Of a stretch of 34,233 bases of DNA, positions 1 through 19,368 are shown one piece after another. The stretch is from a virus. Positions within the stretch are counted from its first letter, which is position 1. Each line of letters begins with the position of its first letter. The notes below the pieces were generated by a model. That model was not told where the DNA came from. It searched no databases and saw only the letters and a program-made list of their open reading frames with translations. Position numbers and translations under genes: made by a program. The stretch covers positions 1 through 34,233 of IMG/VR virus record IMGVR_UViG_3300042465_001531; one strand, 5' to 3'.

Positions 1-3000
1 CGAGCAAGCAACGCAGGGCGGAAACCGATGGCTTGCGCAAGAATCTGACCAGTGGAAACTAAATTGGGGTCAAGCACAGTCTGCCCCTTCATGTCTTTCA
101 AACCGTCGTTGGCCATTTTGTTCGCCAACAGCAAGTTACGGATAACCGCTGGGGTCGCCTTTTCCATCATCTTCTGATAGTCGCCAACTGCATAGGCATC
201 AAACGCATCAGCAATAGAAAGCCCAACACCAACCGCAGGGCCAGCTTTCTCAATCATGTACAGCTTTGTGGCCTCGTTCATGGTTTTGGATTCTTTAACA
301 TCCCTACCAGTCAAATCGTTCAAGCCAATGCGCTCGGCAATCGCCAATCCTGTAAGGGCATTGAGTGGGCCGGTTTCCAAAATCTCGCTAACCGGAACAC
401 CGCCAATCATCACCTCACCCAACTTCTCGGGCAGGAACACAGTGCGGAACCAAGTCTCAGAGTCTATGTTTTTGAGGTCTTCCGGCCAATCTTCGTCGTC
501 TTGCAAGTCACGGAAAGCTGCGGCAATCACGCCAAGGAATGGGAAGGGGAGACCAGCCAAACCAGCAAGGCTACCCGCTGTCAGGTAAATACCGAAGAAC
601 TTAATAGCCGCAGCTTTCTTGCCTTCTTTGTTCAAGAACGGCATCATTTTCTTAAAGTTTGTAGCAAGTAACAGCGCAGTGTGCAACGGGAACATCTTGA
701 ACTGCAACGCCACTTTGCCGATGCCCTGTTGCATGAAGCGGGGACGGTTGGTAATGTCGTAGTTGGCCAAAGCCTCGTTCACGTCGGACACAGCTTGATT
801 GATAGCCGCATCAGGTGTCAGCCCACGGCGAACGCCCAAACGGTAAGAGGCCAAGAACACTGCCTCACGGGTCAAACGCTCAGTGTTGTGCATCAGACTG
901 CCGACCAACAAATCAGCCGCTTCTTTGCCGAGTTCCTTGGTTTTGCCCAGCATGGTTGAAGCTTCCCGGGTTGGGGTACTTCTGTATCCGTAGACTTCGG
1001 AGGAGTAGGTGGACTGAACAACTCCACGCTGCATCATTTCACGAATAGCATTGCGCTCGTCTTCGGGCAACTTGGTGTTGTTGGCAAGACTTGGTGCAAC
1101 CAAGGAAGTTGTACCGTCAGCGTTCTCACGAATCACGCTGTACTGATTCATCAACGCGATCATTTTGCCAAGCTCTTTTGCGGCGGCGGTGATGTTGTTG
1201 TGGTTTGCGCCAAGCACAGGCAGGCCAGCAATATAAATACTGGCTGGCTGAATCAAAGCTGAAGCCGCACTGGACAGATACCAGAAGTACGAGACCTTGT
1301 TTGCCACGCCTGCGATCACATCGCCAAGACCTTCGCTGGGGCCAGTCAGCGCCATGTCCACTCGTTTTTGCATCTCTTCAACAAACGGTGACAGGTTTGA
1401 ACGCATCTTGGTTGCGTCTCTTGCAGCCGACAAAGAATTGCGCAGCAAGGGGGCGTACTTCAACTTGGCCAACTGGATTGAAGTCTTGGTTGCTGTAGTA
1501 GCCACATTGCGGAGCACGTCGGTGCTGAAACCAGCGCGGTCTTTACGATGGATGAACTGACTGCGAAAGCTCTGCTCAGGCATGGTGTTGAGGTACACCT
1601 GATAGATAGCATCTTTCAACGCTTCTTTAGCTTCAGCAGAACCAAGGTCTTCTTTGTCGATTGCGTCAAAGATTTGAGTCAGCATGGCACTGGAGTTTTG
1701 GCTCGCTGTGCGCAGAGTCTTTACGTTCTCACCTTTGTCAAACTTACCGCTGGTGTACAGGTCTTCTAAATCTGTGCGGCGTTCGGCTGCAAGCTCCGAT
1801 GCTTTTTGGTCACGTTCAGCAATCGTTTCAAACATGTAGAACGCTTGCTTGGTTTCCTTGCCAACTTTCTCCTCTACGCGCAACCAGAAATCCCCACGGC
1901 GAACCAATGGGAAGTAGGGGCGAATACGTGCGCCGGTCTCAAAGGTTTTGCGCAAGACATTGATGAGGTTCTTTTTCCCCTCGGGGCTCATGCCTTGGAT
2001 GTTGTTGATCTGTTGATCGAGCAAATCAGAGTACAAGTCAACCATGTCTTCGTAGTACTGCTTGAGCATACGGTACATGCGCTGGCCCTTTTCACCGAGT
2101 GCTTTCCATTGGGCATCTAGCTCAGGACTACGTTCGGTGGCTTTGGGGTCAGAAGGGTCAACTTGGGCAATCGTCGTTTCATACACAAAGTTTTCAAACT
2201 GGGTACGGAACTTCTTGGCACTGCGGAACAGCGGGTTTAACTCTTCTTTGAGTGAAGCCACAATCTTCTGCGCACCGGTTTGCAACGACTGGGACATGCC
2301 CATCATCTGTTGCATTTGTTTGTCGGTGTCTTTTAAAGAATCAATACCTGACCAATCGGCTAAGAAAGTAGCCGTAGGCAACGCCACCAATTTTTGGATA
2401 GCGTCGTATGACATGTTCTTCCACTTGCTTGCAACCAAAGCTTGGAGAATACTCAGCACCAGACGAGGGTCACGGGCCAACTGCATGGCCTCAATATCTT
2501 CGCCTTCTTCACCCTGCCGAGACACACGAACTTTCTCTGCGGCAATCTTTGCGTCTTTCTTCAGCTCGGCGGCAGACCGGATTGGGTCACCAAACTCATT
2601 CTCGCCTTCAGACTTGAGTTGGGAAGAAACCTCTGTTGTATCTGCACCTGCTCGTTCCGCAGCAATCTCTGCTCGCATATCGGCAGTCAGGCGAGACTTG
2701 AGCATCTTGTCGGTGATGGTGATTACATCTGCAAGGGCGCTGGTGTGCATTGCCCCCATGTTGAAGAACTGCCGCACGTTGTTGACGAACCGAGTGAACA
2801 GCGGCTGTTTAATAGCGCCTTCGGTTTCCATCAAGAACTTCTGGAAGCGGGGGTGAGACATTGCATAGGCAACAAACTCACGGGGGTCGCCAAAGATATC
2901 GGACACCACCAGCTCACCCATGAACTCTGGCAATGTGCCTGCGTCGAGCATTTCCTTTACGCGCTTCAGGGTCAGGTCCATAGTGCCCTGCAAGGCATCA

Positions 3001-6000
3001 AACGATTTCACCAAATCAGACTTGAGGTCTTTGCCTGCTCTGATGGCTCCGTCGGCCATAGCTATTTTTTCATTAAGTGCGGCGTGCAGCATCTCGTGCA
3101 GCACAGTGACGTTGTTCACGCCTTGGTTGGGGCCTCCAGTTGCGCCACGAACAAAGACAAAGCGTTCTCCAGTAGCCACAGTGCGCAAGAACATGCCACG
3201 AGATTCATTCCAGTCGGCCTCTACGCCTCCTTCAGTAATCTGAGGGGGTAACGGTGCGCCTTCTTCAATTACTTGGAACTTCACGTTCTTTACAAACGGC
3301 AGCAGACGAGCGGCCAAGAATCTTTGGAACGCGTTACCAGTCTTGATGACGTGCCGCAGTGCTTGCTGGCCAGTGGTCATCTTGCTGAATCTAGTATCGG
3401 CTCGGCCAACTTTGACCTCAGTCGTAGCTTTAGATACTTGGGCAGCGATGCCCTTCTTGACGTTCTCAAGTTCTGCGGGGGTAATGGCTGGGTTTTTCAA
3501 CAGCTCATTTACGCGATCCCCGAGTTTGGTTCCTTTGAGCGAACGAGACAGCAGCACCAAGGATTTAATTGCTTGGATTTTGCCGACACGTTTATCTGTT
3601 TGGGCGGCAGACAAAGCTTCGTCTGAACCGATAGTCTCTTCGTCTATAGGAGCAAGTGCTTCGTTGAGGGCGGCTTCAGTGGCATCGACAGTTTTTACAT
3701 TCTGCTTGTAGTCTTTGCGTTGCTGTTTGCGGCGCTCATCGCTGGCAGCTTTTTGCTCTGGGGTTTGACGAGCACCCTTTGGCCCACGTTTACCCTTTGG
3801 CGCTTCTTCAGTAGGCAGAGTAGTTATATCCCCGACGGCGTCAGCAACGTCATCAGAAATTTCAGCTTCTTCAGCAATTACATCGTCTGACTTGGTAATG
3901 GATTCAACGGGGGCTGCTTCTTGTCCTTGCGTTTCTGCTTGGACGGCTTCAGTGGTTTCAGTGCCAACTTGGTCTCCTCTAGTTTTGGCTCTTTCGGCAT
4001 CAAGCGCGTCAATCTGCGCAATAATTTCGTCAAACTCCGCATTTTTAGCTTGGCGTTGTTTTTCTGCCTCATTTATCTCGTCAAGGTATTCAGACCCACC
4101 CTTACCTTCGTAAATCCCTTTGTTGCGCAGTTTTTCTTGCTCGTCAAATAAGTCATTCCCTTGTTGTTGGACTTCATCCAACTTAGCCATAAGCGCATCA
4201 CGTTTATCAAAGTACTCAAGAGTGCTCAATGGTTTTGGTTGGGTGGTTTGTTCAAACGGGTCAACTATTGCAACGGGCTGTGTTGCTTCTCCTGTAGCAG
4301 CCCCTGCAACATCCTGTCCAGCAGGAACCATTCCACTTGGCTCAGCGATTCCAACTCCTCCGGGGGCGGTGTCTGCACTGGGCTGTCCAGCCACTGGAAC
4401 GCCTGCTCCACTTGGCTCGGTGATAGTCGGTCTAACATTTACGGCTCCTTCTGCTTCTGCAAGTGCGTCCGCTCTACGTTCTTCCATGATCTGCACAGGG
4501 GCAAGATTCATCGCCTCGACAGGCTCCATGCCTTGGTCAATAAGTTCTTTGGCGCGTTGTTGAACTTCATCCTCAGTTGGCTCAGTGACCAACTCAGCAA
4601 TTTTTTTCTTGCGTTTTTCCAGTACTTGCTTCACTGCGATACGGTTTGCGCTGTCAATGGGCTGTCCACTTTCTACCAGCCGCGCAATGATTTTTGTAGT
4701 TTCGGCTTTCTCTTCATCGTCAAAGGGCCGAGGTGGTTCCGCGCCTTCATCCGGAGCAGTGGCAGCAATCAGCGCAGCATCATCAAGTGCGGGTTCTTTA
4801 GAAGGAGCTTTGCCTTCGGGCACGAGGAACCCTTTTGACCGAGCGATCTGCTCAGCAGAAGGAATGAACGCCGCCTGCTTCTCCAGTTGCGCAGATTCGC
4901 GCAGATTGGCCTTGACATCTAACGGGGCTGACACGCCCTCGGCCAAAGCTTCTAACAATACATCGACGGGCTTGTTATCCCCAGTAGCTTTTTGCGCAAC
5001 AAACTCACCACCTGCACCGCTACCCATCTGCATGGAAAGCTCTTTGGCGTAAGCGGCGGCAGTAGCTTTTTTGGCCGCAACGCCTGTTAATTTACCCGCA
5101 GCGATCAAATCTTTTGCGGGTTTTAAGAACCGCCCGGCCAAGCCCATAGAGATAGCACCAAAACCGCCAACAATCAATCCACGTTTTGCACCTTTGCTTT
5201 TGATCTCCTCCATGATTTTGGGGTCGTTCAAAGCATTGGACACCGCATTTGGGTCAAGCAAATCAACGCCTTTATCTTGGAGCACATCGGTTATTACTGC
5301 GCCGTATTCCATACCGCCAGAAGACACCCCAGCTAAAACAGCCCCGGGGATACCGCCAGCTATATAGGCGGGGGCCATCATGGGTAAAGACGTAGCCACC
5401 GACTCAATCAACATAGTTGTAGTGGCACGAGGGTTTGTAAACAAAGCCACCGCAGCATCGCCGTAAGTTTTAGCCTTCCCAATTTCTTCCATCTGCGCCC
5501 GAGTTTCAGAGTCTGGCATTGCAGCGGCTCGGCGTTTTGCATTTGCGGCAATAACTCGTCCAGCTTGGTCTGGCTCCATACCGCCTGTTTGGAGCAATAG
5601 CCCCGTGGCTGTGTCGCCAAGGTTTGCATCAACACGCTTGAACAAGTTGGCTGTGCCCTGCAACCAGCCGGGTTCCTCGCTTGCTTTGATTTCTCCAGTC
5701 GGTGGCATTGCGCCTTTGGAGACTGGGCCGGTGGTTTGTTTAAAGTAGTCACTGCCACGTTGCTGGCCACGAGCAATAATTTCTTCCCAAGGCACGCCCA
5801 TCTTGGTGAACGCAGCTTTGATTTCTTCGCGGTCTGCGCCCTCTTCCAACAAGTTGATTGCGTCATTGACCGCCTCATCACGGTTCTTGTACGCGGGTGG
5901 GGCGCTAGTGTCTACGGGCGCAGGTGCAGGTTTACGGCGTGGAACATATCCCGCCATACCTTGTGGAGTGGTGCCTGTAGTAGAGGGAGCCGCAGGGATT

Positions 6001-6098
6001 GGCTGCGGTTCATCTATTGGGGTAAACGAAGTAAATGTGGGTGCAGATTGAGGTTCGGCTTCTTCAATTGGGGTGAAGGAGGTAAAGGTTTGTGCCAT
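1..6098 (-). CDS. Giant polyvalent (PLxRFG-type) putative ejection protein, 3' end outside window
   Basis: One frame stays open from an ATG at 6098 to the left edge (2032 codons, no stop seen), so the C-terminus is missing. The start follows the previous stop by 11 nt with a GGGTGAT-like ribosome site. Visible parts: a duplicated TFTSFTPI at residues 4-11 and 21-28; hydrophobic Gly/Ala-rich stretches near 229-261 and 305-325; a charged, probably coiled-coil region near 625-710; an HEMLH zinc-metallopeptidase-type motif at 1001-1005 with a possible third ligand Glu1074 in GDPREF; a PLVRRG motif at 1397-1402 after PYF; and a FPLH segment (1803-1806) followed by a hydrophobic stretch near 1825-1860. 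PLxRFG domains are known from large polyvalent proteins of phages and conjugative elements, thought to enter the cell with the DNA. The position after two ejection-like genes matches the place of T7 gp16. That role is inference. The canonical Phe of PLxRFG is Arg here. Confidence 0.85.
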   Translation of the reverse strand, partial: MAQTFTSFTPIEEAEPQSAPTFTSFTPIDEPQPIPAAPSTTGTTPQGMAGYVPRRKPAPAPVDTSAPPAYKNRDEAVNDAINLLEEGADREEIKAAFTKMGVPWEEIIARGQQRGSDYFKQTTGPVSKGAMPPTGEIKASEEPGWLQGTANLFKRVDANLGDTATGLLLQTGGMEPDQAGRVIAANAKRRAAAMPDSETRAQMEEIGKAKTYGDAAVALFTNPRATTTMLIESVATSLPMMAPAYIAGGIPGAVLAGVSSGGMEYGAVITDVLQDKGVDLLDPNAVSNALNDPKIMEEIKSKGAKRGLIVGGFGAISMGLAGRFLKPAKDLIAAGKLTGVAAKKATAAAYAKELSMQMGSGAGGEFVAQKATGDNKPVDVLLEALAEGVSAPLDVKANLRESAQLEKQAAFIPSAEQIARSKGFLVPEGKAPSKEPALDDAALIAATAPDEGAEPPRPFDDEEKAETTKIIARLVESGQPIDSANRIAVKQVLEKRKKKIAELVTEPTEDEVQQRAKELIDQGMEPVEAMNLAPVQIMEERRADALAEAEGAVNVRPTITEPSGAGVPVAGQPSADTAPGGVGIAEPSGMVPAGQDVAGAATGEATQPVAIVDPFEQTTQPKPLSTLEYFDKRDALMAKLDEVQQQGNDLFDEQEKLRNKGIYEGKGGSEYLDEINEAEKQRQAKNAEFDEIIAQIDALDAERAKTRGDQVGTETTEAVQAETQGQEAAPVESITKSDDVIAEEAEISDDVADAVGDITTLPTEEAPKGKRGPKGARQTPEQKAASDERRKQQRKDYKQNVKTVDATEAALNEALAPIDEETIGSDEALSAAQTDKRVGKIQAIKSLVLLSRSLKGTKLGDRVNELLKNPAITPAELENVKKGIAAQVSKATTEVKVGRADTRFSKMTTGQQALRHVIKTGNAFQRFLAARLLPFVKNVKFQVIEEGAPLPPQITEGGVEADWNESRGMFLRTVATGERFVFVRGATGGPNQGVNNVTVLHEMLHAALNEKIAMADGAIRAGKDLKSDLVKSFDALQGTMDLTLKRVKEMLDAGTLPEFMGELVVSDIFGDPREFVAYAMSHPRFQKFLMETEGAIKQPLFTRFVNNVRQFFNMGAMHTSALADVITITDKMLKSRLTADMRAEIAAERAGADTTEVSSQLKSEGENEFGDPIRSAAELKKDAKIAAEKVRVSRQGEEGEDIEAMQLARDPRLVLSILQALVASKWKNMSYDAIQKLVALPTATFLADWSGIDSLKDTDKQMQQMMGMSQSLQTGAQKIVASLKEELNPLFRSAKKFRTQFENFVYETTIAQVDPSDPKATERSPELDAQWKALGEKGQRMYRMLKQYYEDMVDLYSDLLDQQINNIQGMSPEGKKNLINVLRKTFETGARIRPYFPLVRRGDFWLRVEEKVGKETKQAFYMFETIAERDQKASELAAERRTDLEDLYTSGKFDKGENVKTLRTASQNSSAMLTQIFDAIDKEDLGSAEAKEALKDAIYQVYLNTMPEQSFRSQFIHRKDRAGFSTDVLRNVATTATKTSIQLAKLKYAPLLRNSLSAARDATKMRSNLSPFVEEMQKRVDMALTGPSEGLGDVIAGVANKVSYFWYLSSAASALIQPASIYIAGLPVLGANHNNITAAAKELGKMIALMNQYSVIRENADGTTSLVAPSLANNTKLPEDERNAIREMMQRGVVQSTYSSEVYGYRSTPTREASTMLGKTKELGKEAADLLVGSLMHNTERLTREAVFLASYRLGVRRGLTPDAAINQAVSDVNEALANYDITNRPRFMQQGIGKVALQFKMFPLHTALLLATNFKKMMPFLNKEGKKAAAIKFFGIYLTAGSLAGLAGLPFPFLGVIAAAFRDLQDDEDWPEDLKNIDSETWFRTVFLPEKLGEVMIGGVPVSEILETGPLNALTGLAIAERIGLNDLTGRDVKESKTMNEATKLYMIEKAGPAVGVGLSIADAFDAYAVGDYQKMMEKATPAVIRNLLLANKMANDGLKDMKGQTVLDPNLVSTGQILAQAIGFRPALLA

Positions 6099-6109
6099 AT
6101 ATCACCCGC

Positions 6110-8344
6110 TTAATTTGCATACCCGATCACTTTACCATCCTTAAGTACTTCTGTTCCTTTGCCCTGTACAAATTTACCCGTGGTTGTGCCGAGCGGCAGT
6201 ACCGATTTAGCCGCAGGCGCGGGTGTAGGTGCAGCAGTTGGCGCGGCTGCTTTGGTCGGGTCGTAGTCACGGATAAACGCCTCACTAGCGGCTTTTTCTG
6301 ATCCATGCTTGGTAACCATAGCGTTCCAATCCTTCTTGCGTGTGCGAGACATTTTGAGCTCATTAAGAGCTTTCAACGCTTCTCTGCGGGTTGGCTCATC
6401 AATTGCTCCCTCAGCAAGTTCTGCTTTAGTTGGGCCAACATCGGAAGTCTTGGTGCGATCTACAGCGCGGCGCAAGGCAATGACTCGTTTTTCATTCGCT
6501 GGGGTTGGGTCGTTTTCAAATTTAACTTCCGCATCGGCCAACTGCTCGTTGATCTTGAGCGGCTTAGGCCCACCACCTGTACCAGTTCCCTTAACAGGCT
6601 TGGTAGCTTGAGCAAATTTGCCAGCAACAGCCGCCAAAGCTTGAGATTTTTTGATGCCAAATTGTTGCGCGGCATCGTGGTCTTTACGTGCTTGGTCGGC
6701 GGCAGAGATAGCATCACGAGTCAAACCCATACGTTCTTTACGTTGCGCGTCTTCTAAGTTCATGCGCATACTCATCATGGACCGTTTCTGAGCTTTGTCA
6801 GCTTGGAGGGCTTGGCCGTATGCACCAGCAAACGCACTGCCAGCAGCGCCTAACCCACGAATTGCGTTACCGCCTTGTAGCATTGCACCAGCGGCTTGAA
6901 GCGCGGCAATCCCTTTGGCTTGGTTTAAACCTTTGGCATCCTCGGCTTCCATATTCTTCAGTCGGGTTTCGTAGTCGGCATAAGGGCTGGGGCCAGCACC
7001 ATCTTCCAATGCTTTACGGCGCTTGGTAATAGCGTCGTTGTACTGAGTGTCCGTCATTGGGGTGTACTGGGCGTTAGCCACCCGAGCCATGAGCGCGGGA
7101 AACATACTGGTGACTTGCTTATACGCAGCAGGGTTACCTTCAGTTGCGCCCATCAAACTGGCTAAATCCATTGAGGAAGCATCTTCATCTTCGTCGTCCA
7201 CCAGACCTCGGTTTGCAAAAGCCACAATGCCACCACCCGCCATCATTGCTTCTTGCTGTTCAGGTTCAATCTGGTCAAACGCACTGCCAAGACCCGCAGT
7301 CAAAGATTTAGACTGGGCAAGCTCAGCCAATCGAGCGTCAATCATCTCGACTGTTTGTACGTCTCTGCGGTTTAAGGCGGCTTCTTTGGCTTGCCGAAGT
7401 TGCTCGGGGCTCAGCTTGCTGATGATGTTTTCTACATTGTCTTGACTGGTTACCCCGCCGTCTGCATACGACTGAGCCAAACCACCTTCCGCGCCTTTCG
7501 CTAACTGACTCAAGCCATAAGCACCCATACCCAATGAACCAAGCGTTTGCAGCCCAGAAGGACCAGCTTGGTAAATGGAAGAAGTTGACTGCTGACCCAA
7601 CGGCAAGCCGCGAATCATGTCGGACATAAAGCCCAACTGTTTGTACGGTTGGTTTTGTTGGTTTATGAAGTCTTGATACGCCATGTCCAGCGGACGCTGA
7701 GCTTGCTGCTGTTGGAGCGCACCCATTTGCCCTTGCATTTGCGCAAGTCCAGACTGTTGAGTGACACCTTGACGGAATTGATTTGCAGCTTGGTCATACG
7801 CAGCTTGTGAGCCACGGGCTTGAATATCCCCCATTTGTTGGGAAAGATTGCGCTCACGCTCAGCTTGCATAATTGCATCGCGGCTACCGCCAAATGCACC
7901 TCGTTGAACTGCCCCAGCAGCTTGCTGTTGGCCCATGATTCCTGATTGCCGCGCCGCTTCTTGCTTTTGAATGTCCACCACATTCTGCATGTAGGGCGAC
8001 ATGTACGAGCCGATATTTTTCTGAAACGCTTCGGGGCCAGCATCTAACCCAGCCATAGTGCCAAATGCCTGCTGCTGCATAGGTTGGAACCCAGCAATGC
8101 GTTCTCCACCGTACTGCTTGTACGGGTTCTGACTTGGGTCACTGAGCGCCGCAGTTTTTGCAAGGGTGTCTTTTGCGTAGCCACGAGCCCAGTCTGGCAA
8201 TTCGCTAATACCAGTCTGAGTTGTTTCTGCGGGTGGAGCAGAGCTGCCGCCGCCGCCGTAGATGCGACCACCGGGTTTTACACGGGTGGCTGATTCGCCA
8301 AATGGTTCGCCAAAAGCTTCAAGTTGTCTACGGGAGTAATTCAT
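6110..8344 (-). CDS. Putative internal virion (ejection) protein, 744 aa
   Basis: Long Gln/Ala/Gly-rich, mostly helical-looking protein with no enzyme motif that I recognise. Residues around 120-220 are very Gln-rich (QQQAAGAVQRG, LQQQQAQRP) and would form extended helices. The centre carries two glycine motifs, SYADGGVTS and MAGGGIVAFANRG, which recur in other proteins of this operon. The C-terminal third is charged, then Ala/Pro-rich. The ATG overlaps the stop of the GNAT gene (ATGA at 8341-8344), so translation is probably coupled. Size, composition and location between the tail nozzle region and the giant protein fit an internal core or ejection protein like those that follow the nozzle in T7-like phages. 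No sequence match to T7 gp14 or gp15 is claimed. Confidence 0.85.
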   Translation of the reverse strand: MNYSRRQLEAFGEPFGESATRVKPGGRIYGGGGSSAPPAETTQTGISELPDWARGYAKDTLAKTAALSDPSQNPYKQYGGERIAGFQPMQQQAFGTMAGLDAGPEAFQKNIGSYMSPYMQNVVDIQKQEAARQSGIMGQQQAAGAVQRGAFGGSRDAIMQAERERNLSQQMGDIQARGSQAAYDQAANQFRQGVTQQSGLAQMQGQMGALQQQQAQRPLDMAYQDFINQQNQPYKQLGFMSDMIRGLPLGQQSTSSIYQAGPSGLQTLGSLGMGAYGLSQLAKGAEGGLAQSYADGGVTSQDNVENIISKLSPEQLRQAKEAALNRRDVQTVEMIDARLAELAQSKSLTAGLGSAFDQIEPEQQEAMMAGGGIVAFANRGLVDDEDEDASSMDLASLMGATEGNPAAYKQVTSMFPALMARVANAQYTPMTDTQYNDAITKRRKALEDGAGPSPYADYETRLKNMEAEDAKGLNQAKGIAALQAAGAMLQGGNAIRGLGAAGSAFAGAYGQALQADKAQKRSMMSMRMNLEDAQRKERMGLTRDAISAADQARKDHDAAQQFGIKKSQALAAVAGKFAQATKPVKGTGTGGGPKPLKINEQLADAEVKFENDPTPANEKRVIALRRAVDRTKTSDVGPTKAELAEGAIDEPTRREALKALNELKMSRTRKKDWNAMVTKHGSEKAASEAFIRDYDPTKAAAPTAAPTPAPAAKSVLPLGTTTGKFVQGKGTEVLKDGKVIGYAN

Positions 8345-8805
8345 ACAGGCTCCGTGCTCAGTATCTTGGTAAAAAGTTTGTCGGTGTGCTTGTACCCAAG
8401 GTACTCAAACAACCGAGAGTTATCCAAATGGATTTTGGTGTGCATGATGATTCTGTTCACACCAGCTTTTTTGAGCACGTCTTCTGCGTACTGGAATAAT
8501 CGTATTCCTATACGGCCCTGACGGAATTCTTTCTTGACGAAATACAGGTCTTCAAAGGCTGTTTTGCAAGACCTGTAGTGTAAATGCGGTTGCACAATAA
8601 AGATAGCGTACCCGATCAGTTTGCCGTCATTACGGCAAGTGATGCACCTGAGCATGTCAGCTACAACCAGTCGGCCATACCCCTCGTAGTCCGGCAGCAA
8701 GGGGAAGTCCTTGGTCACACAAAGTTCTTCGTAGTGCTCAGGTATCAACAACTTCAACTCCTCGATGAATGTGGAGGGGTCTTCATTTGCGTACTCTACC
8801 GTCAT
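8341..8805 (-). CDS. GNAT-fold N-acetyltransferase, T7 gp13-like position
   Basis: 154 residues with a GNAT layout: a central strand pair (DGKLIGYAIFIV), then LYFVKKEFRQGRIGIRLFQY matching the acetyl-CoA-binding loop and helix (Q/RxxGxG/A type, near residues 87-106), then a C-terminal NSRLFEYLGYK segment typical of the last GNAT motif. The ATG overlaps the stop of the preceding gene (ATGA at 8802-8805) and the stop overlaps the next start in the same way. A GNAT-like protein (gp13) also sits among the internal virion protein genes of T7-like phages, where it is involved in virion morphogenesis, so a virion-assembly role is as likely as acetylation of a host target. The substrate cannot be read from the sequence. 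Confidence 0.85.
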   Translation of the reverse strand: MTVEYANEDPSTFIEELKLLIPEHYEELCVTKDFPLLPDYEGYGRLVVADMLRCITCRNDGKLIGYAIFIVQPHLHYRSCKTAFEDLYFVKKEFRQGRIGIRLFQYAEDVLKKAGVNRIIMHTKIHLDNSRLFEYLGYKHTDKLFTKILSTEPV

Positions 8806-10343
8806 GCGGGCAGCAGCCTATCGGCGCGGCTGTTTTTGGCAACTTTACCTTTGCCGATGGATTTCTTACGCGCCTTCTGAACTCTGTCCATCATGGCATA
8901 CAGCTTACGTGCGCCAGCCTCAGTCGAGCCATTGCCCAACTCAGAGACGATACGCGCAGGTACAACAAACTCGCCGTCGGCCAAACGCGCAGGTTGCTTT
9001 TTGCCAATCATGGCTGGGATGGAATCAGACACGCCATCACCGGGGCCACGAAGCAGTCGGCCACCGTCAGAGTAGTCGCCGAGGTGAGAAGCCGCAGAAG
9101 ACAGACCGCCGCGAGCAAATTGTGCTTGGGGTGCAGGGGTGGTACGTTGTTCTTGGCCGGTGTATGGGTCAACTGACACATCTTGACTGCCAGCAATGAT
9201 GTTTTGAGGGTTGGGGGATTGGTACGGCGTTGCATACCCACTCCTACTGATGTCAGCCATTGGGTAGCCGGTGTTTGCCCCAATAGCGTTCAGATTGGAC
9301 ATGGTTTCCACAGGGCCACCGCCTGCAAAACCGTAGATGTTCTTGGCTTCTTCGTCGCTGATTTTGGTGTAAGTAGGGGCAAAGTACTTTTGCTCCCGAC
9401 CGCCAGAGTCTGCGGTGGGTAAGGGGCTGGTGGGGTTTGCAGAATAAGAGTACCGCTGGCCCATATCTGCATCGCCTTTGTACCCGGGTGCTGCTTTATC
9501 GTCGGGCATCAACGCAGGTGCAATCATGCCTGCGGTTTGATAAGGATGCGCAGTAGCGTAATTCATCAGATTTTCACCGGTAAACCCGCGCTGCATGTTT
9601 GCCATGTTGCCGGAGAATGTCGGTTTTGGCGCTGTACCTTGGAACCCCTCTTCAAAAGGAGTATATGGCTTACCGCCGTACATGTGGCCTTCCATATTCA
9701 CTGTTGCCAAATCCGGCTGTGCCGCCGCTGTTACAGGCGGTGTTACAGGTGGTGTTACAGGGTTAACGCTCGGGGCATAGTTTGTGCCCGGCATACTGGT
9801 AATTTGAGTTGGGTTGAACGACGCATTGGCTGGCAATGCGTTAGAAATGATCGGACTTGCTCCCGCAACTGGAGTGGCAATCGGGGCAGTAAGTGCGGCT
9901 TCGGGTATGGCAGCGGCGGCGGCATCAGGTACAACAGCGGCGGCAGCATCAGGTAGCGCACCAGCAATACTCGCGGCTTCGGCAGCGCCAGCGCCCATCA
10001 AACTTGCCCCCAACCCAGCACCGCCGTATGCGCCCAAACCAGCCATCAAACCTTTTTTCAAGCTGCCGGTCATCAAAGTAGTACCACCGCCAACCAACCC
10101 TGCGGCCATCATTGGGCCAACACCGGGGATCATCATCAGACCCGCTCCGGCAATCATGGGCAGGAGTTTTGACAAGAAGCCCGCTTCGGGCAAGCCAGTT
10201 TGAGGGTTAATACTTAGAGACCCGCCGTGGGCCATTGCCAAGTCATTCAGGCTTTTTACTTCCCCACGAGACATGTGGACGAGCGTATTGTCAGGACCTC
10301 GGCCTTGACTAGAAAGGTGTTGGGCAGCAGCGTGCAGGCTCAT
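8802..10343 (-). CDS. Putative internal virion protein with C-terminal GDGVSDSIPA/GEFVVPA module, 513 aa
   Basis: The ATG at 10343 has an AGAGG ribosome site six bases upstream. The N-terminus (GRGPDNTLVHMSRGEV, then AMAHGGSLSINPQTGLPEAGF) is a type I recall from environmental podovirus proteins. It is followed by a hydrophobic Gly/Ala/Met-rich stretch (about 58-125) with probable membrane-inserting helices, an Ala/Pro low-complexity region, and a C-terminal module with FAGGGPVE, FARGGLSS, GDGVSDSIPAMIGKKQPARL, ADGEFVVPARIVSELGNGS and a basic tail. The family has no assigned function that I know. Hydrophobic Gly-zipper-like helices next to the nozzle gene and before a second large Gln-rich protein suggest a channel-forming ejection protein; this is inference. 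Confidence 0.82.
   Translation of the reverse strand: MSLHAAAQHLSSQGRGPDNTLVHMSRGEVKSLNDLAMAHGGSLSINPQTGLPEAGFLSKLLPMIAGAGLMMIPGVGPMMAAGLVGGGTTLMTGSLKKGLMAGLGAYGGAGLGASLMGAGAAEAASIAGALPDAAAAVVPDAAAAAIPEAALTAPIATPVAGASPIISNALPANASFNPTQITSMPGTNYAPSVNPVTPPVTPPVTAAAQPDLATVNMEGHMYGGKPYTPFEEGFQGTAPKPTFSGNMANMQRGFTGENLMNYATAHPYQTAGMIAPALMPDDKAAPGYKGDADMGQRYSYSANPTSPLPTADSGGREQKYFAPTYTKISDEEAKNIYGFAGGGPVETMSNLNAIGANTGYPMADISRSGYATPYQSPNPQNIIAGSQDVSVDPYTGQEQRTTPAPQAQFARGGLSSAASHLGDYSDGGRLLRGPGDGVSDSIPAMIGKKQPARLADGEFVVPARIVSELGNGSTEAGARKLYAMMDRVQKARKKSIGKGKVAKNSRADRLLPA
9728..9763. repeat. Three tandem 12-bp repeats (Pro-Val-Thr linker)
   Basis: The unit is ggtgttacaggt with minor variation, three times in a row. 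It lies inside the 513-aa protein gene and encodes a PPVT-type linker on the minus strand, so it could vary in copy number without breaking the frame. Confidence 0.85.
9911..9955. repeat. Two 21-bp near-identical units 24 bp apart (Pro-Asp-Ala rich)
   Basis: cagcggcggcggcatcaggta at 9911-9931 and cagcggcggcagcatcaggta at 9935-9955 differ at one base. They encode a duplicated PDAAAA-type linker in the 513-aa protein. The in-frame 24-bp spacing suggests a slippage duplication. Confidence 0.8.
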
Positions 10344-10382: not shown

Positions 10383-11087
10383 TCAAGGCGGTGGGAACAA
10401 GGCCGAAACAAATGTTATTGACCCAATAGCAGAGGGCACTGCGGGGTACGGCATGGGGGTTGTTTGGGCTGCGCGGTAGTCAATATACAAGCCTGTTGCA
10501 CCACCGGAAGTGGCGGCTTGGTTTGTGCCCCACCAAAGACCAACTGTATCGCCAGCGTCTAGAGCGAATACCACTTCAGAATATCCGCATACGAATGTTG
10601 GAACCCCTGCACTTTTACGCGCAGCCACGGTAAAAACTGTTGATGAGCTTGCCACGTCCTCAGCAGATGTACTGCCATTTATCCGCAACCAGACTACTGC
10701 ATCATGGGCGACGTTGTCGTTGTTGGCAAACTGAAGGCTATAGGTTATTTTGTAAATACCAGAAACATTTGCTGTGGCAGTGTTACCTACATTTAGGGTG
10801 AACTGATTGCCGTCTTCAAGCGTGTCCCATGTAATGATTGTTGGCGTGTTGGCCGCTGTTGCGTATTGAATTCCATTATCGGCTGCGGCAATAAAAGGAA
10901 ACTGCAAAAGCGCACCGCCAGAATCGCTCGTAAACAACTGTAAAAAATTGCGGATTTGATTGAAGTAAAGACGCAGGGCGTTTGAATACTGCTCTTGATA
11001 TTGAGCGTCGTACTGCATGGGAGCCGCCAACAGGCGCGGCTCTTGAGGTGCAATAAGCGGTTGGGTTTTAAATTGCGGGAGTGACAT
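10383..11087 (-). CDS. C1q/TNF-like trimeric virion protein, 234 aa
   Basis: The first 60 residues are charged and Gln-rich (QYDAQYQEQYSNALRLYFNQ, then IRNFLQLF) and look like an attachment helix. Residues about 60-205 form a jelly-roll of the C1q/TNF type: NVSGIYKITYSLQF is the typical central strand motif, followed by AVVWLRINGS and a late VVFALDAGDTVGLWW strand. Such domains form trimers at the tips of phage fibres or on virion surfaces. The ATG overlaps the nozzle gene's stop (TAATG at 11087-11089), suggesting coupled synthesis. It could be a nozzle-associated fibre or appendage. The gene is followed by a 39-base gap with the ribosome site of the next gene. Confidence 0.8.
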   Translation of the reverse strand: MSLPQFKTQPLIAPQEPRLLAAPMQYDAQYQEQYSNALRLYFNQIRNFLQLFTSDSGGALLQFPFIAAADNGIQYATAANTPTIITWDTLEDGNQFTLNVGNTATANVSGIYKITYSLQFANNDNVAHDAVVWLRINGSTSAEDVASSSTVFTVAARKSAGVPTFVCGYSEVVFALDAGDTVGLWWGTNQAATSGGATGLYIDYRAAQTTPMPYPAVPSAIGSITFVSALFPPP

Positions 11088-13399
11088 TATCGACGTCCAT
11101 CTGGGCGAACGTCAATGCGGGGGGAGCCAAGCTGCCACGCCACACCGAGGTCGTTGGAACTAATTCTGAACGCCATCTGCCGTCCGCGCACCCGCACATA
11201 GACTTGCTGAGTGAATTCCTGCACTGTGTACGTCGGCACACTTGTGTAGTTTTGGGCGCTGGTAACCGTGGGGCTATCCGTTGAGCCGTAGTTTGTACCG
11301 GGGAACTGTCGTGGGCGTACAGAGAAATCCAATGATGGGTTGTTCACAGTGGAGCCGTCAAACGTCACATCGGGAATAACACGAGTAACAAGCCCAAAAT
11401 TGTGCCCATCACCAATGTCAAAGTCAGAGGACTGAACATAAGCTTCAATAGGTAACAGAGTACCCGGCGTAGTTGCGCCATCATCATTGCCTGTCTCTTG
11501 GTAAATCAAAGTGCCGTTTGAGTTTTTATACCCGGCGGACATAGGCACTTGACGCAACGGACTATCAAGCCAGCAAGACCGTTCCATCTTGCCGTAGTAC
11601 CAAGTACGCTCAAGGTGATTGAAGATGATGTAGCGATCAACTTTTTCGTTTGGATTGGCCAAAGTACCCGTACCATCTGTACCGGTGATTGAGCAATAGA
11701 ACCACCAAATTTCGTTGTAGCCCTCGTTGGTGCTGGCGAAGAATTGATACCCTTGAACCAAGTTAATGTCATCAAACACATACTGACGCAATGCGCAGGG
11801 GAGTGTTTCTACACGGCCTGAGTACATATAGAACTTGTCCGTGCCCATCCAGTAGGTGATGTTGTTTACCGTAGTCACGGCGTTTGGCCCAGTCATAGAG
11901 ATGTTGTCGCCCATCAACTGGAAGCCCCACACATAAGGTGGGCCGAGGTACTGCATGGAATAAATTGCCGAATCCGTGTAAACCAAGATTTCTTGGCGCG
12001 TCTGCATGGCGGTCACAATTTGAGAGCCATGACTTAAACGATAACTGCCCGCTTGGTTTGTAACCGCTGGAGCCCAAATGTCTGGGCGCTCTTGGTCAGA
12101 CCAACGAATCAACATTGGGTCTTGTGTGTTGGCGCTGGCAGTTCCGGGGTAGTCGTTAACACCAAACGCCAAAACAAAACGAGAAGCGTCGGATATGGTG
12201 ACAAAATTCACCACCGAGGGACAGGAAGTATCTGGAGTAAAAGAACCCGTTGACGTGGTCACCGCAACGCTTGGGCCAAGCAACTGAGCGCGATCAAATG
12301 TAGTCGGCGTAGCGTTGTTTGCCCAGTAGTACATAGGCCCACCGCGAGGGGCAAAAATTAAATCTTGCCCAAAGTTTGCTTGGCTCCACAGACGTAATTG
12401 TTGGCCAACACCTGCACTAGCTGATGCCTCACCCCAACCAGTAAAGCTTGTTGATTGAACAACCGCTGCGCCATCTGCATGAGTAGTAGCCGCACCTGAG
12501 CCCGGCGTACCATCAACCCCGCGAGTACAGCCTGTGAACGTAGTGCTTGTAGTCCCGGTGTATGTAATTGTTTCTGAGTCAATCAACAGTGTGCCAGTGG
12601 GCGTAGAAAACCCTGTAGTAGAAGTCACAGTTACCGTGGTATTGGAATTGGACAGCGTCCCGCCAGCCACCGCAGTGGTGGGCGTACCAATAACAACACC
12701 ACCCCAAGTACCAGCACCCCAGCCTACGTTTTGGGTAAAGATTTCATTACCTGAGTTAATCTGATAAGTGAATGTCGCAGTAACCGCCGATGTGCCACTG
12801 CTTGTTGCAGTACCCGTAACAACCACCGAGTACGTATTGGTTGAGATGTAAGTGATCTGGCGCTCGCCATTGATATTGGCCGCAGGTACACCGTTTACAG
12901 CGCCGGAAGTGGCGGAGATTGACACAAAGTCGCCCGTCTGAGAACCGTGCCCGGGGTCGTTGACCACTAAGGTTGTTTTGCCGCCAATGTTGGTAGCGGT
13001 GTCGGTGGTAAACGCATTGGATACAGTAGCGCGAGTTAGCCTAATTGGGGTTATGTCATAAAAAGAACCGTTTACACCGTTTTGTACGTAATACTTTAAG
13101 TTTGTACCAACCGCCAATAAATTGTAGGCTGCTAAATTCAACCAATTCCATAGGGCGCGACAAGTGCCCCAGAACGTGCCGGTTGTTGGTATAGCGGAGG
13201 CTGTCGTGCCCCCAGAAGTAAAAGTGCCTATGGGGGTTGTGGGAGTTTCAACACCTGTATCAACAACCCAGCCACCAATCTTTTCGGGGTAGCCAGAACG
13301 GAAACGCACTTTATCGGACTCAAACCAACCGCCTTCGTTGGCAAGCGTTGTACTCTCTCGGTTAACGCCGGGTCTGAATTGCAGTTTCTGTAATGGCAT
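11087..13399 (-). CDS. Tail tube/nozzle protein (P22 gp10 / T7 gp12 functional class), 770 aa
   Basis: The start RFRPGVNRESTTLANEGGWF, then KVRFRSGYPEKIGGW and WLNLAAYNLLAVGTN are characteristic of podoviral nozzle or 'stabilisation' proteins that cap the tail below the adaptor ring. The core is beta-rich with propeller-like repeats (DPMLIRWSDQERPDIWAP; QEILVYTDSAIYSM). Two accessory beta modules are inserted: about 130-210 (GHGSQTGDFVSI ... NTYSVVVTG) and about 247-316 (TVTVTSTTGF ... IDSETITY ... CTRGVDGT). Both have relatives in other proteins of this operon. The ATG has a GAGGGTG site five bases upstream. The gene lies between the endolysin and ejection-protein genes. Confidence 0.85.
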   Translation of the reverse strand: MPLQKLQFRPGVNRESTTLANEGGWFESDKVRFRSGYPEKIGGWVVDTGVETPTTPIGTFTSGGTTASAIPTTGTFWGTCRALWNWLNLAAYNLLAVGTNLKYYVQNGVNGSFYDITPIRLTRATVSNAFTTDTATNIGGKTTLVVNDPGHGSQTGDFVSISATSGAVNGVPAANINGERQITYISTNTYSVVVTGTATSSGTSAVTATFTYQINSGNEIFTQNVGWGAGTWGGVVIGTPTTAVAGGTLSNSNTTVTVTSTTGFSTPTGTLLIDSETITYTGTTSTTFTGCTRGVDGTPGSGAATTHADGAAVVQSTSFTGWGEASASAGVGQQLRLWSQANFGQDLIFAPRGGPMYYWANNATPTTFDRAQLLGPSVAVTTSTGSFTPDTSCPSVVNFVTISDASRFVLAFGVNDYPGTASANTQDPMLIRWSDQERPDIWAPAVTNQAGSYRLSHGSQIVTAMQTRQEILVYTDSAIYSMQYLGPPYVWGFQLMGDNISMTGPNAVTTVNNITYWMGTDKFYMYSGRVETLPCALRQYVFDDINLVQGYQFFASTNEGYNEIWWFYCSITGTDGTGTLANPNEKVDRYIIFNHLERTWYYGKMERSCWLDSPLRQVPMSAGYKNSNGTLIYQETGNDDGATTPGTLLPIEAYVQSSDFDIGDGHNFGLVTRVIPDVTFDGSTVNNPSLDFSVRPRQFPGTNYGSTDSPTVTSAQNYTSVPTYTVQEFTQQVYVRVRGRQMAFRISSNDLGVAWQLGSPRIDVRPDGRR

Positions 13400-15566: not shown

Positions 15567-18500
15567 TTAAACTGCGTTGCCAAAAGCAAACGAGTTTTCA
15601 GCCCATGCTGCAAATACGTAGCGGCCACCACTTACATTGGCCAAAGTAGCGGAACGAATCTTGAACCCGTTGGAGAGGAAGTCAACTGCCACCGTGCTGG
15701 TATCCGCAGCATTCGCCAAATCAGCATACAAGGTGTTGCTGCCTACGTTGATTGGGGAGCGAGTGGAGTCCCACATGAACCAATTGGAAGTGCTGTCAAC
15801 GCGCTTGACCAATATCATTTTTGGCTTGAAACCGCAGTCTACAAAGGGGCCGTCGGCAGAGCCGTTGCCAAGGTACACGCTATACATTGATTGCCCAGAT
15901 ACGGTGGCGAATGTGTAGGCTACGTATGTGACCCCAGAACCATTAGTAAGCGCGGAAGTGCCAACTGTAAAGTCGGTAGTTGTTGGAGACGTGTTGTTCC
16001 ATACAGTTGTACCAGCGGTGTACCCAGCGGTGGAATTCAGCGATAAATACCCGCCTTGCGGGGAACTTGCAGCTTGGTCTTTATGGTAAACAGTCCAAGC
16101 ATTTGCCGCGCTTCTGGCTTTTACAATTATGAACGCTATAGGGTTCTGATCCCCCGTTGTTTGCGCCCGCACAAGAGCCGCCGCAGTAGCGTTACCCGTA
16201 TAAGTGGTAATACAAATCCCCAGCGGGTTGAACTGATTTACTACCGCAAGGTTAGTAGAAACCGCCGTCTGGGTTTTAGTTTGGCCGGTTCCCATCCTCC
16301 ATTGCCACGCCAAGTAAGTAGCTGACGCAGTATTTACACGGGCTAAGCTACCGACAGTAAACCCAGTACTGCTAAACGCAGTGACACCCGTAGCTTGAGT
16401 GGTTTCTGCGGCGGCGGAGTTAACAATCAACTCTTTTGTTGTCCCGCGAGACGAGTCATAGATTACGTTATCAGTCGCTCCGCTGATGCCCTTTATCCAC
16501 ACCAAGTCCCCGTAAGTGTTGCTGTTGTTAACTGTGTTGGTTACAGCCAAAGAACTGCCTGTACCCGTATAAACCGTAGCGGCTACGCTGTTTGCGGAAT
16601 TCAACGCCCTAAATTGCACTTGGTTTAACCACGTAAGAGTGTTAAGAACTTCTCTGGGATACGTATTTACCGATGTATTTGGGTAGACGAAAGGCCGCTG
16701 CCCAAAGTTGATATTGCAAGATGAGGTCACGCTTGTAGAAGAGTTGCCAACCACGGGCACGTAGTACCAAGAGTTGCCTGTGGCGGGAATCATTGAGGAG
16801 TACGCAACGCCCAACGCAGTACCGTTCTTGTAAAAAATTATAGAAGAGCCTGCGACTTCAACCCCAATAACATCTCCGACTGTGGCTGACGCACCAAAAG
16901 GTTCGGATAGGTTGTTGTTTACTTTGGTACCGGTTGCGGAATCATATACATAGCCTCTAGGACTAAAGCCCGGATAAGACGCAGTTACATCATTGATTTG
17001 GATGATTCCAATTTGTAGTGTGCCCGCAGTGATCGTTACCTCAAAATACGCGTTTGAACGCAAGCCATAGCTTCCGCCAACCGTTGAGACGCTTATGGTA
17101 AATTGCATTGACCCAACAGCCCGAGAATAATTTGCACTGCCCGGAGCGGAATAGCTTAAGTTGCCGTTTGTCAATGTACCAAGTGGAGCGACAGATTTGG
17201 CCAGTGGGTTCAACACTGAGTAGTTTCCACGCCCATAAGCCCCGTCGTAATACGCCACTGGAACATCAAGCATTGAGTCATACGTTGCACCGGTCGTTAT
17301 GCTGATATTGTTGGGCGTCCAGTTGTTACCGTTACCGCTGTAGTCTTTACCAATGGTCGTTGCTGTTACACCGCTGTTGTCGCTGAAATTGATGTAAAAG
17401 CCGTTTGCGCCGTATGTACCATCGTACCGAATAGGTTGCCACTGACTGGTGATTGGGGCCGAAAACCCGAAGCTAGATGGCGTCAGAGCTTGGCCATCAA
17501 CAAAATTGATCTCAGTGAGATAGCCATCAAAATAGTTGGTGGTGTTTGCCGCGCCTATCTGGTGGGCAATAGCAGTATTGAATACCGTATTGGCCGTTGT
17601 TCCTGTACCTGCAACATTGCCGTTTACATACAGAGTCTGGGCAGCGCCGTTCTGCGTGTAAACAATGTGATACCAAGCGGAAGGGTCACGATATACCGCA
17701 GTGGTTGTAACTGCTGTAGTGCCAGCAAGCGTCAAAACAAGTTGATCGCCTGAGTTAAACCCAAAGTTGGTTGTGGTGCTTGCCCCAAACAAATACGAGG
17801 TTGTTCCCAACGCGCCGCGCTTCACCCAGCCAGACCAAGTAAAGATAGTTGAAGATGTCGGTGCACCAAATGTGTCGCTCAAATAAGCGGATGCTGAAGA
17901 GCGCAAGCGAACACTGCGGCTAATCGTGTAGGGTGGGCCAACAAGTTTTTTAATGTAGTTAGAAAAGCCTCCTGTCGAGGCTGTTAACGCAGGACTCGCA
18001 GTCGCTATCGACCCGGAAGCAAAAGTACCCGCTCCCGCTATCACCGTTATTAAAGAACCCGTTGTTGCAGTAATAGGCTTAAGCGCATTGCTGTACTGGG
18101 AAACAAATTGCGCGTCTGTTTGGTACTGCCCAAACAGGCTACCATCGGCGGGTATTTTGTAAAACTGCCACGCATTTCCATTTCCAGAAAGAGTTGCAGT
18201 TTCAGCAAGTGTAGTGTTGCCAACCAAATACACTGATTGCCCAACTGCCGCCACCCCCCTGAACGCTGAACTGTTGATGCCGGGGAAAGTTGTTACCCCC
18301 GAGTTATTAAAGCATCTCGCCCATACTACAGTTCCTGTAGAAGTTAGTTTAATTAAAAGCGGCACCCCGTAAGGCCCATCCTGATTGGCATACGCTGCTT
18401 GGCCTAATAAGTACACGTTCCCAAAAAGGTCGCAAGTAGAAGAATACAGAACATTCATAACGTACTGTGATATGTACGTTTGGAATACGCAGTTGCCAGA

Positions 18501-19361
18501 TGTATCAAATTTTAATATAGTGGGGTTAAACAACGACGCACTTCCTGCACCGATAATGTATATGTTGTTGAACTGGTCAATGCTTAAAACTTGAATAGAG
18601 TTATTTTGTCGTGAAAAATTTGTATTATTAACCCCATTAAAAACTTTTTGCCATTGAAGAGTTCCACTGCTATTGTATTTAAAAAGACCGTAATAATAAT
18701 TGCCGCTAAAATTACCCAAAATTTGCCCAAGACAATAAATATTTCCCGCTGAATCTAAAATCATGTTTACCCCTCCAACGAAGGAAGTAGCATCGGCAGG
18801 AAATACATTGGTCGGCCAAGTTACAGTTTGAGCCCATTGCGCAGTGCCACTGCTGTTGTATTTAACAACCGTGCAATTGTCTAATAATAGATACACGTTA
18901 TCGCTAGAGTCAACTGCCAACTCAGAGGCGCTGTTTGACGCTACGGAATTAACTATTGTAGAAACTTGAGCAGCTATATTGCCGTTGCTTGCATCAATCT
19001 TCAAATACCCAGTTTTATTTCCAGATGCAAAGTCGATTACAGTGGTATATACGTACCCGTTTGCATAGACCGCTCTAGACCCATAAGTGGTTGTAGAATT
19101 ACTTGTACCGGCGTAATTTTTTTGCCAAACAGTATTGCCAAAGCTATCGACTTTAAGTGCTACAACATTAATGTTAGCGTTGGATGTCCCCGCCAGCCCT
19201 ACAAAATAAGTATTTCCTTGGGGGTCTTCTGCCGCTTGTCTTAATATAGAAGTGCCTTGCGTTGTCGTGCCAAGAAGGTGCCCCATGTAAAACGCGCCGG
19301 ACACCCCATTGGAAGATAGGGCTCTTGCATTTGCTGCACCGGATGTAATTATGGTTGGCAT
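15567..19361 (-). CDS. Giant tail fibre/adhesin: beta-propeller, LamG-like and SPRY-like domains, 1264 aa
   Basis: The start MPTIITSGA at 19361 is seven bases after the previous stop. Residues about 40-400 hold at least five repeats of the form D..GN.Y..G...KY...G...W (DSSDNVYLLL, DSAGNIYCLGQ, DQFNNIYIIG, DLFGNVYLLGQ), resembling the SBBP beta-propeller repeat. Residues 482-635 resemble a LamG/concanavalin jelly-roll (VRLRSSASAYLSDTF ... WYHIVYTQNGAAQTLYVNG ... FDGYLTEINFVDG). Residues about 770-895 resemble a SPRY sandwich (AYFEVTITAG ... GVEVAGSSIIFYKNGTALG). Residues 945-1264 hold two fibre modules with WIKGISGATDNVIYDSSRG and GPFVDCGFKPKMILVKRVD, like a domain I know from phage fibres (DUF7483-type). 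The likely role is binding host surface glycans or proteins. It is the last and largest of the fibre genes. Confidence 0.85.
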   Translation of the reverse strand: MPTIITSGAANARALSSNGVSGAFYMGHLLGTTTQGTSILRQAAEDPQGNTYFVGLAGTSNANINVVALKVDSFGNTVWQKNYAGTSNSTTTYGSRAVYANGYVYTTVIDFASGNKTGYLKIDASNGNIAAQVSTIVNSVASNSASELAVDSSDNVYLLLDNCTVVKYNSSGTAQWAQTVTWPTNVFPADATSFVGGVNMILDSAGNIYCLGQILGNFSGNYYYGLFKYNSSGTLQWQKVFNGVNNTNFSRQNNSIQVLSIDQFNNIYIIGAGSASLFNPTILKFDTSGNCVFQTYISQYVMNVLYSSTCDLFGNVYLLGQAAYANQDGPYGVPLLIKLTSTGTVVWARCFNNSGVTTFPGINSSAFRGVAAVGQSVYLVGNTTLAETATLSGNGNAWQFYKIPADGSLFGQYQTDAQFVSQYSNALKPITATTGSLITVIAGAGTFASGSIATASPALTASTGGFSNYIKKLVGPPYTISRSVRLRSSASAYLSDTFGAPTSSTIFTWSGWVKRGALGTTSYLFGASTTTNFGFNSGDQLVLTLAGTTAVTTTAVYRDPSAWYHIVYTQNGAAQTLYVNGNVAGTGTTANTVFNTAIAHQIGAANTTNYFDGYLTEINFVDGQALTPSSFGFSAPITSQWQPIRYDGTYGANGFYINFSDNSGVTATTIGKDYSGNGNNWTPNNISITTGATYDSMLDVPVAYYDGAYGRGNYSVLNPLAKSVAPLGTLTNGNLSYSAPGSANYSRAVGSMQFTISVSTVGGSYGLRSNAYFEVTITAGTLQIGIIQINDVTASYPGFSPRGYVYDSATGTKVNNNLSEPFGASATVGDVIGVEVAGSSIIFYKNGTALGVAYSSMIPATGNSWYYVPVVGNSSTSVTSSCNINFGQRPFVYPNTSVNTYPREVLNTLTWLNQVQFRALNSANSVAATVYTGTGSSLAVTNTVNNSNTYGDLVWIKGISGATDNVIYDSSRGTTKELIVNSAAAETTQATGVTAFSSTGFTVGSLARVNTASATYLAWQWRMGTGQTKTQTAVSTNLAVVNQFNPLGICITTYTGNATAAALVRAQTTGDQNPIAFIIVKARSAANAWTVYHKDQAASSPQGGYLSLNSTAGYTAGTTVWNNTSPTTTDFTVGTSALTNGSGVTYVAYTFATVSGQSMYSVYLGNGSADGPFVDCGFKPKMILVKRVDSTSNWFMWDSTRSPINVGSNTLYADLANAADTSTVAVDFLSNGFKIRSATLANVSGGRYVFAAWAENSFAFGNAV

Positions 19362-19368
19362 ATCAATC

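Follow-up and report, generated by a model that had tools for sequence, protein, structure and literature searches.

A conserved gene nested out of frame in the gene of a giant PLxRFG-type polyvalent protein from an environmental virus record

The giant frame and the gene inside it

The window analysed here is the entire 34,233-base IMG/VR virus record IMGVR_UViG_3300042465_001531, with no sequence to the left of position 1. Its left end is taken up by a giant open reading frame (ORF) on the minus strand, which starts with the ATG at 6098 and runs without a stop through 2032 codons to the left edge (3..6098), and which encodes a protein of the PLxRFG type; such giant phage proteins are a recognised class and are believed to pass into the host along with phage DNA. 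A second gene, of 57 codons, lies inside this frame and is read in another; the conservation of this nested gene and its relation to the giant are the subject of this report.

3..6098, minus strand: gene of the giant PLxRFG polyvalent protein, 2032 codons; the contig edge truncates its 3' end and about 93 codons are absent
4265..4438, minus strand: nested overlapping gene, 57 codons plus TAG, MLDRLSPSQVEQAFQWLDSPVQTPPPEELESLSQVEWFLLDRMLQGLLQEKQHSPLQ, in the +1 frame relative to the giant (giant codons 554-612)
4445..4450, minus strand: Shine-Dalgarno-like AAGGAG, 6 nt before the nested ATG

Complete orthologues of the giant are present in two IMG/VR contigs, L002 (2125 amino acids (aa), 72% identity) and L003 (2195 aa, 70% identity), and a chance frame is thereby excluded. 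The uninterrupted minus-strand frame reported in a preliminary description of the sequence is sound, and the stop, which that description sought beyond the left edge where the record ends, is placed by the orthologues 93 residues further on; the alignment leaves the window protein short of about 93 C-terminal residues of a full length of about 2125 aa. The nested gene, contained in the same coordinates, had escaped that description. Past the giant's stop, the genes of the orthologous contigs are convergent and belong to a replication module (DUF927, SNF2, PDDEXK, DNA polymerase A).

A conserved stretch of 64 residues precedes a highly variable slot of the giant, and its interpretation as a linker of the giant protein was overturned by the DNA alignment, in which conservation follows the +1 frame. 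The nested gene is encoded in all 60 sequences that carry the stretch (window included), as 44 distinct proteins of 55–59 aa, with ATG, GTG or TTG starts in 58 cases and ATA in two; in the window an in-frame TAA lies just upstream of the nested ATG. Host codon positions 1, 2 and 3 differ between the window and L002 at 18, 6 and 3 sites in the nested region versus 201, 124 and 494 in the peptidase and core regions (Fisher p 1.7e-7). When the whole giant was scanned in 57-codon segments over four sequence pairs, the lowest third-minus-first-position divergence fell at residues 553-609, exactly on the nested gene, and no region elsewhere in the giant gave an inverted codon-position signal that would point to further nested frames. 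Synonymous redrawing of host codons, with the host amino acids fixed, leaves the nested frame open in a mean of 15% of draws (42% in the case of the window itself), versus 44 of 44 observed; a start codon is present in 42 of the 44 distinct relatives against a background of 9%, and a Shine-Dalgarno-like element precedes 38 of the 44 starts against 8%. These counts are non-independent owing to relatedness; the codon-position inversion is also seen within single pairs. Amino acids and length (55–59) are retained down to about 40% identity, together with start, stop and Shine-Dalgarno element. The comparative hallmarks of an overlapping gene are found, namely codon-periodic conservation in the alternative frame and a conserved start, stop and ribosome-binding element. 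On this comparative sequence evidence the nested frame is under selection, and that it is protein-coding is near certain. The product, which contains the peptide LSPSQVEQAFQWLDSPVQTPPPEELESLSQVEWFLLDR, is acidic (net charge -6) and devoid of a hydrophobic segment; by inspection, a PPP sequence separates what are probably two amphipathic helices. In the giant, residues 552-621 are predicted to be disordered; codons 554-612 are apparently conserved in spite of this because the second gene overlaps them.

A separate search with the nested protein returned 86 relatives, of which 80 were kept. In 79 of them a long host ORF encloses the gene completely, always with the same frame relation, and one further copy is cut by the sequence end. 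A PLxRFG core is visible in 64 hosts. Four further hosts (L119, L120, L122, L153) are complete at the 3' end and carry no PLxRFG core, with LPD38 in its place in L119 and L153; all four possess the zincin-like peptidase domain described below, and L119, L120 and L122 also the two candidate ejection proteins that precede the giant, E744 and E513. No match to the nested protein was obtained in PHROGs, Pfam or NCBIfam, no free-standing copy was found in viral contigs, reference genomes or cultured phages, and cultured phages and reference genomes yielded no copy of any kind. By these searches, the 57-residue gene is undescribed, and dozens of related environmental phages conserve it.

Modular layout of the giant and its C-terminal core

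Outside the nested gene, the giant is divided into the following segments.

5964..6098, minus strand: N-terminal tag, two tandem FTSFTPI(E/D)E copies (residues 1-45), predicted disordered; self-similarity z 7.5 over shuffles
4809..5723, minus strand: helical, glycine/alanine-rich N-module (residues 126-430), common to some relatives only; low model confidence
3894..4262, minus strand: cassette slot (residues 613-735), swapped wholesale among close relatives; starts directly after the nested-gene stop
3978..4223, minus strand: antiparallel coiled-coil hairpin (residues 626-707), the slot content in the window
2649..3401, minus strand: zincin-like metallopeptidase domain (residues 900-1150)
3084..3098, minus strand: HEMLH motif (residues 1001-1005); third-ligand candidate E1074 at 2877-2879
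1971..2315, minus strand: LPD39-like segment (residues 1262-1376), under the Pfam cut-off
12..1919, minus strand: PLxRFG / tail-700 core (residues 1394-2029)
1893..1910, minus strand: PLVRRG motif, with Arg for Phe (residues 1397-1402)

The N-terminal tags of the window, L002, L003 and L025-L099 are built from a short peptide, aromatic and often acidic, which is repeated two to four times in tandem and is lineage-specific (FTSFTPIEE, DFSAELFGEPAPA, DYAALAKQFGG, WSVVSETP, WTPPSDA, TFSFEEA and others). Most of 38 non-redundant relatives show N-terminal self-similarity beyond that of shuffles, and 24 have recognisable repeats at p <=0.02. Tags differ even between near relatives of about 72% overall identity (FTSFTPIEE vs DFSAELFGEPAPA), while the distant relatives L043 and L049 share the tag of the window giant; several relatives have a small N-terminal domain in place of repeats. 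Among the loci searched, the same repeat tags were found in giants and in the 1241-aa last-slot-type protein of L008 only. The small N-terminal domain seen in several PLxRFG giants also opens the 505-aa last late protein of ct2os315 (L012 22581-24098; MPVYEFQGKHYELSETDPSVAKSKI), whose body is unrelated, which suggests that this domain is an exchangeable loading tag.

Across the slot, identity between near relatives drops to 10–18%, against 54–86% in the flanks. Its content in relatives is GNAT-like, ART-like, a coiled coil or no domain (names given mostly by inspection, Pfam support being weak), and the region between linker and peptidase in the 2873-aa giant of L090 (2424-11045) harbours a GHKL ATPase domain (HATPase_c_3). 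The preliminary description had proposed that the giant may carry effector domains, a view supported by the varying slot content of close relatives. The window's own cassette is only a coiled coil, so that an effector in the window giant would be extrapolated from relatives, the zincin being the sole candidate enzyme in it. The slot next to the nested gene, together with tags that vary among near relatives, suggests that loading is modular and that phages can fit different effectors into it.

Residues H1001, E1002, H1005 and E1074 of the zincin-like domain are nearly invariant across 21 relatives; the region is modelled with good confidence and is homologous to a segment of the Parlo giant (2e-15), with no PDB or Pfam match. 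In the relative L024 (1-6282), a frameshift, either an assembly error or a natural split, divides the giant near the end of the peptidase domain into ORFs of 1097 and 1057 aa, and the nested gene is intact there. The coiled coil, the metallopeptidase-like motif and the PLVRRG motif noted earlier were all located as listed above. Of the hydrophobic segments noted with them, one (1844-1862) exceeds a Kyte-Doolittle mean of 1.6 and no other passes.

Assignment to the PLxRFG family, already made in the preliminary description, is upheld by the profile and does not depend on the Phe residue: residues 1394-2029 score 317.7 bits against NCBIfam NF032893 (PLxRFG domain, tail-700; cut-off 100), and the orthologue L002 covers the model to its end (679/681). 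The best PHROG is phrog_10089 (E 7e-52). By tblastn, 177 phage records match the giant at residues ~1290-2032, the best 40 of them in the C-terminal third only and at 24–28% identity. The literal PLxRFG motif is absent from the window giant, its PYFPLVRRGD aligning with the PYFPLARFGD of the cultured phages ZX1 and Skulduggery. Related IMG/VR loci have R, E, Y, V, Q or F at the Phe position (RRG, REG, RYG, RVG, RQG, RFG); judged from these loci, Phe is not general and the Arg is within the family's normal spread. LPD39 (PF18858) scores 18.7 bits in the window giant and 18.5–21.2 in the orthologues, and the Pfam gathering cut-off of 27 is not reached. By Pfam, the window giant contains no helicase or methylase, unlike that of ZX1, and it therefore represents a compact version of the PLxRFG polyvalent protein.

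A PDB fold search with the N-terminal half gave nothing below E 0.5. In BFVD, polyvalent relatives were found, in addition to a weak match to 'internal virion protein D' of the Roseobacter phages CRP-5 and CRP-4 that sequence-profile comparison did not back. Kinship of the core with the short last-slot proteins of DSL-LC04, CRP-901, HTVC023P and ct2os315 has no sequence support. Iyer et al. 2017 define polyvalent proteins by at least two unrelated domain activities on a large polypeptide encoded near virion genes, and the giant combines a zincin-like domain, a PLxRFG core and a variable cassette, all of predicted activity, in a late operon. Read from its sequence, it is a compact (~2125 aa) PLxRFG polyvalent protein with tandem N-terminal repeats, an exchangeable cassette, an HExxH domain and the PLxRFG core.

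Late-gene context, proposed mechanism and alternatives

The giant is the last gene of a late operon in the order structural protein (phrog_3287), P234, E513, GNAT, E744, giant.

11087..13399, minus strand: virion structural (stabilization type) protein, phrog_3287 E 5e-56; homologues in DSL-LC04 and HTVC023P
8802..10343, minus strand: E513, second candidate ejection protein, without family match; homologues in 38 loci
8341..8805, minus strand: GNAT acetyltransferase, between the ejection-type genes E513 and E744
6110..8344, minus strand: E744, candidate ejection protein directly upstream of the giant, phrog_4287 DNA ejection protein E 7e-6

A homologue of E744 lies upstream in all 37 nested-bearing loci with enough flank, and a PLxRFG giant is the last late gene in most cultured relatives. 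The Epa33 homologue with the same core is annotated 'structural protein 5', and that of H66 is reported as structural (PMC5217972). The two candidate ejection proteins said to precede the giant are indeed there and conserved, and both the position and the annotation of same-core homologues favour the structural or ejection-apparatus role proposed for it. A GNAT gene shortly before the last large late gene is also found in Skulduggery, CRP-901, Parlo, JC1 and CRP-5; many podophages with a large last late gene have GNAT at a similar late position, where it is possibly a modifier of virion proteins. Further upstream, a 1304-aa tail fibre/structural ORF (15567-19481, minus strand) with a GTG start at 19481 shares 113 bases with a 281-aa ORF (19369-20214, minus strand). 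The opening ~40 residues of the longer ORF (VWRGLLVLQAVLTLTLT...) have a non-native appearance, and translation probably begins at a more internal codon.

We consider it likely that the giant is a podophage polyvalent protein which is made late, alongside the tail and ejection genes, becomes part of the virion and is ejected together with the DNA, and that its codons 554-612 double as an independent +1-frame gene, whose product may be a co-made assembly or loading partner. The giant's disordered N-terminal repeat tag may serve for virion loading, and is followed by the helical N-module, a disordered stretch, the exchangeable cassette (a coiled coil here), the zincin-like peptidase and the PLxRFG core. 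The cassette might be payload or spacer, the peptidase might act in self-processing or release, and the C-terminal core could be a part of the ejection apparatus or conduit. Codons 554-612 would form an independent gene with its own Shine-Dalgarno start and a 57-residue acidic, helical product, perhaps co-produced as a partner in assembly or loading of the ejection module. It is possible, and we propose it tentatively, that the nested protein founds a new family of overprinted phage genes and serves the E513-E744-giant module specifically, as a loading adaptor or chaperone, being made from within the giant gene so that its synthesis is coupled in amount and place.

Several points weigh against this interpretation. 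The predicted structure of the core is of modest confidence (predicted local distance difference test, pLDDT, 65), and a PDB fold search with it found no match, nothing falling below E 0.5. An HExxH motif or matching domain is not seen in part of the family (e.g. L043, L049, L054), and the mechanism can accordingly do without the zincin. All phages with the nested gene are metagenomic contigs. For the nested protein, which resembles nothing known, a function has to be argued from context. Purified virions of JC1 contain its gp69 protein, identified by 51 unique peptides (PMC9144972); the JC1/Bcep22 virion proteomics was rejected as evidence for the window giant, since JC1 gp69 has no PLxRFG core and is an analogue in the same position only.

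Alternative explanations concern both proteins. The giant might be an intracellular late protein, made after infection for antirestriction or host takeover and absent from the virion, as its best PHROG match, filed under 'DarB-like antirestriction' and moron/host takeover, would suggest; the late position behind ejection-type genes and the structural annotation of homologues make this quite unlikely, and phage polyvalent proteins are typically encoded near virion genes (PMC5512222). The stretch itself might be a DNA-level element, either an RNA structure or a site at which cassettes are exchanged by recombination, with the other frame open incidentally; in favour of this, it directly abuts the 5' end of the exchanged cassette, where an anchor for homologous recombination would be useful. 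Such an element is very unlikely as the whole explanation, as changes cluster at nested third codon positions while amino acids, length, start, stop and Shine-Dalgarno sequence are retained, a codon periodicity not expected of a DNA anchor; the stretch may serve as an anchor in addition to being a gene.

The remaining alternatives grant the nested protein and assign it another task. As an immunity or antitoxin factor, it would silence the effector cassette or peptidase of the giant in the producing cell, and its location right at the cassette, its co-production and its small size and acidity, shared with many inhibitors, would suit that role. An inhibitor should co-vary with its target, however, and the nested protein is conserved while the cassette varies and persists in giants without HExxH and in giants with a different C-terminus, which renders the proposal unlikely. 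An assembly or loading partner is favoured over a single-effector antitoxin because the nested protein persists through changes of tag, cassette and C-terminal core, and because it accompanies E744. There is also a modest chance that the product is an accessory protein, for instance in transcription or anti-defence, overprinted by chance and without functional link to the giant. Overprinted viral proteins are often accessory. Overprinting itself is a common viral route to new proteins according to a systematic review (PMC8227390), but in the 80 loci the nested gene never occurs outside the giant gene, and E744 is always present where sequence suffices (37/37).

Interest in giant polyvalent proteins has centred on their effectors; a gene inside them would escape gene callers, and this one is absent from the three libraries searched. 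It offers a small, testable handle on the loading or handling of such giants.

Comparison with known systems

The closest cultured counterparts are the giants of ZX1, Skulduggery, Parlo and PEp14 (Lastavirus, Skulduggeryvirus, Parlovirus, Pavtokvirus), which share with the window giant a C-terminal core of ~650–700 aa at 24–28% identity, the PYFPLxRxG motif and the slot behind ejection-type late genes. They are longer (3700–4900 aa), the nested gene was not found in them, and the window giant differs from the group by Arg for Phe in the motif; that of ZX1 has in addition a transglycosylase N-terminus and helicase-methylase domains, none of which the window giant possesses. 'Structural protein 5' of Epa33 (F116-like, Hollowayvirus) resembles the window giant in its PLxRFG core, N-terminal tandem repeat (KPWEEF twice), HExxH motif and structural annotation, but is 3799 aa long and without the linker and nested gene. 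The Synechococcus phage MinM2 has an LPD38-type giant at this genomic position, likewise preceded by homologues of E744 and E513; LPD38 stands in place of the PLxRFG core, and the nested gene was not detected. The window giant is not a member of the 'DarB-like' family of Bcep22 gp75 and JC1 gp69, having no helicase or methylase by Pfam, with JC1 gp69 in turn lacking the core. Like the polyvalent proteins surveyed by Iyer et al. 2017 (PMC5512222), it is large, modular, zincin-containing and encoded near virion genes; its LPD39 match is below cut-off, and an internal out-of-frame gene is not met in the passages of that account consulted.

For the nested arrangement, a parallel is the pair of overlapping lysis genes Rz and Rz1, annotated in PEp14 and JC1 as well. 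Rz1, nested in Rz, is a lipoprotein of known function, whereas the nested protein of the giant is unrelated to it and devoid of hydrophobic segments. What the two have in common is the genetic layout, a small gene contained entirely within another, in a different frame and in a late operon.

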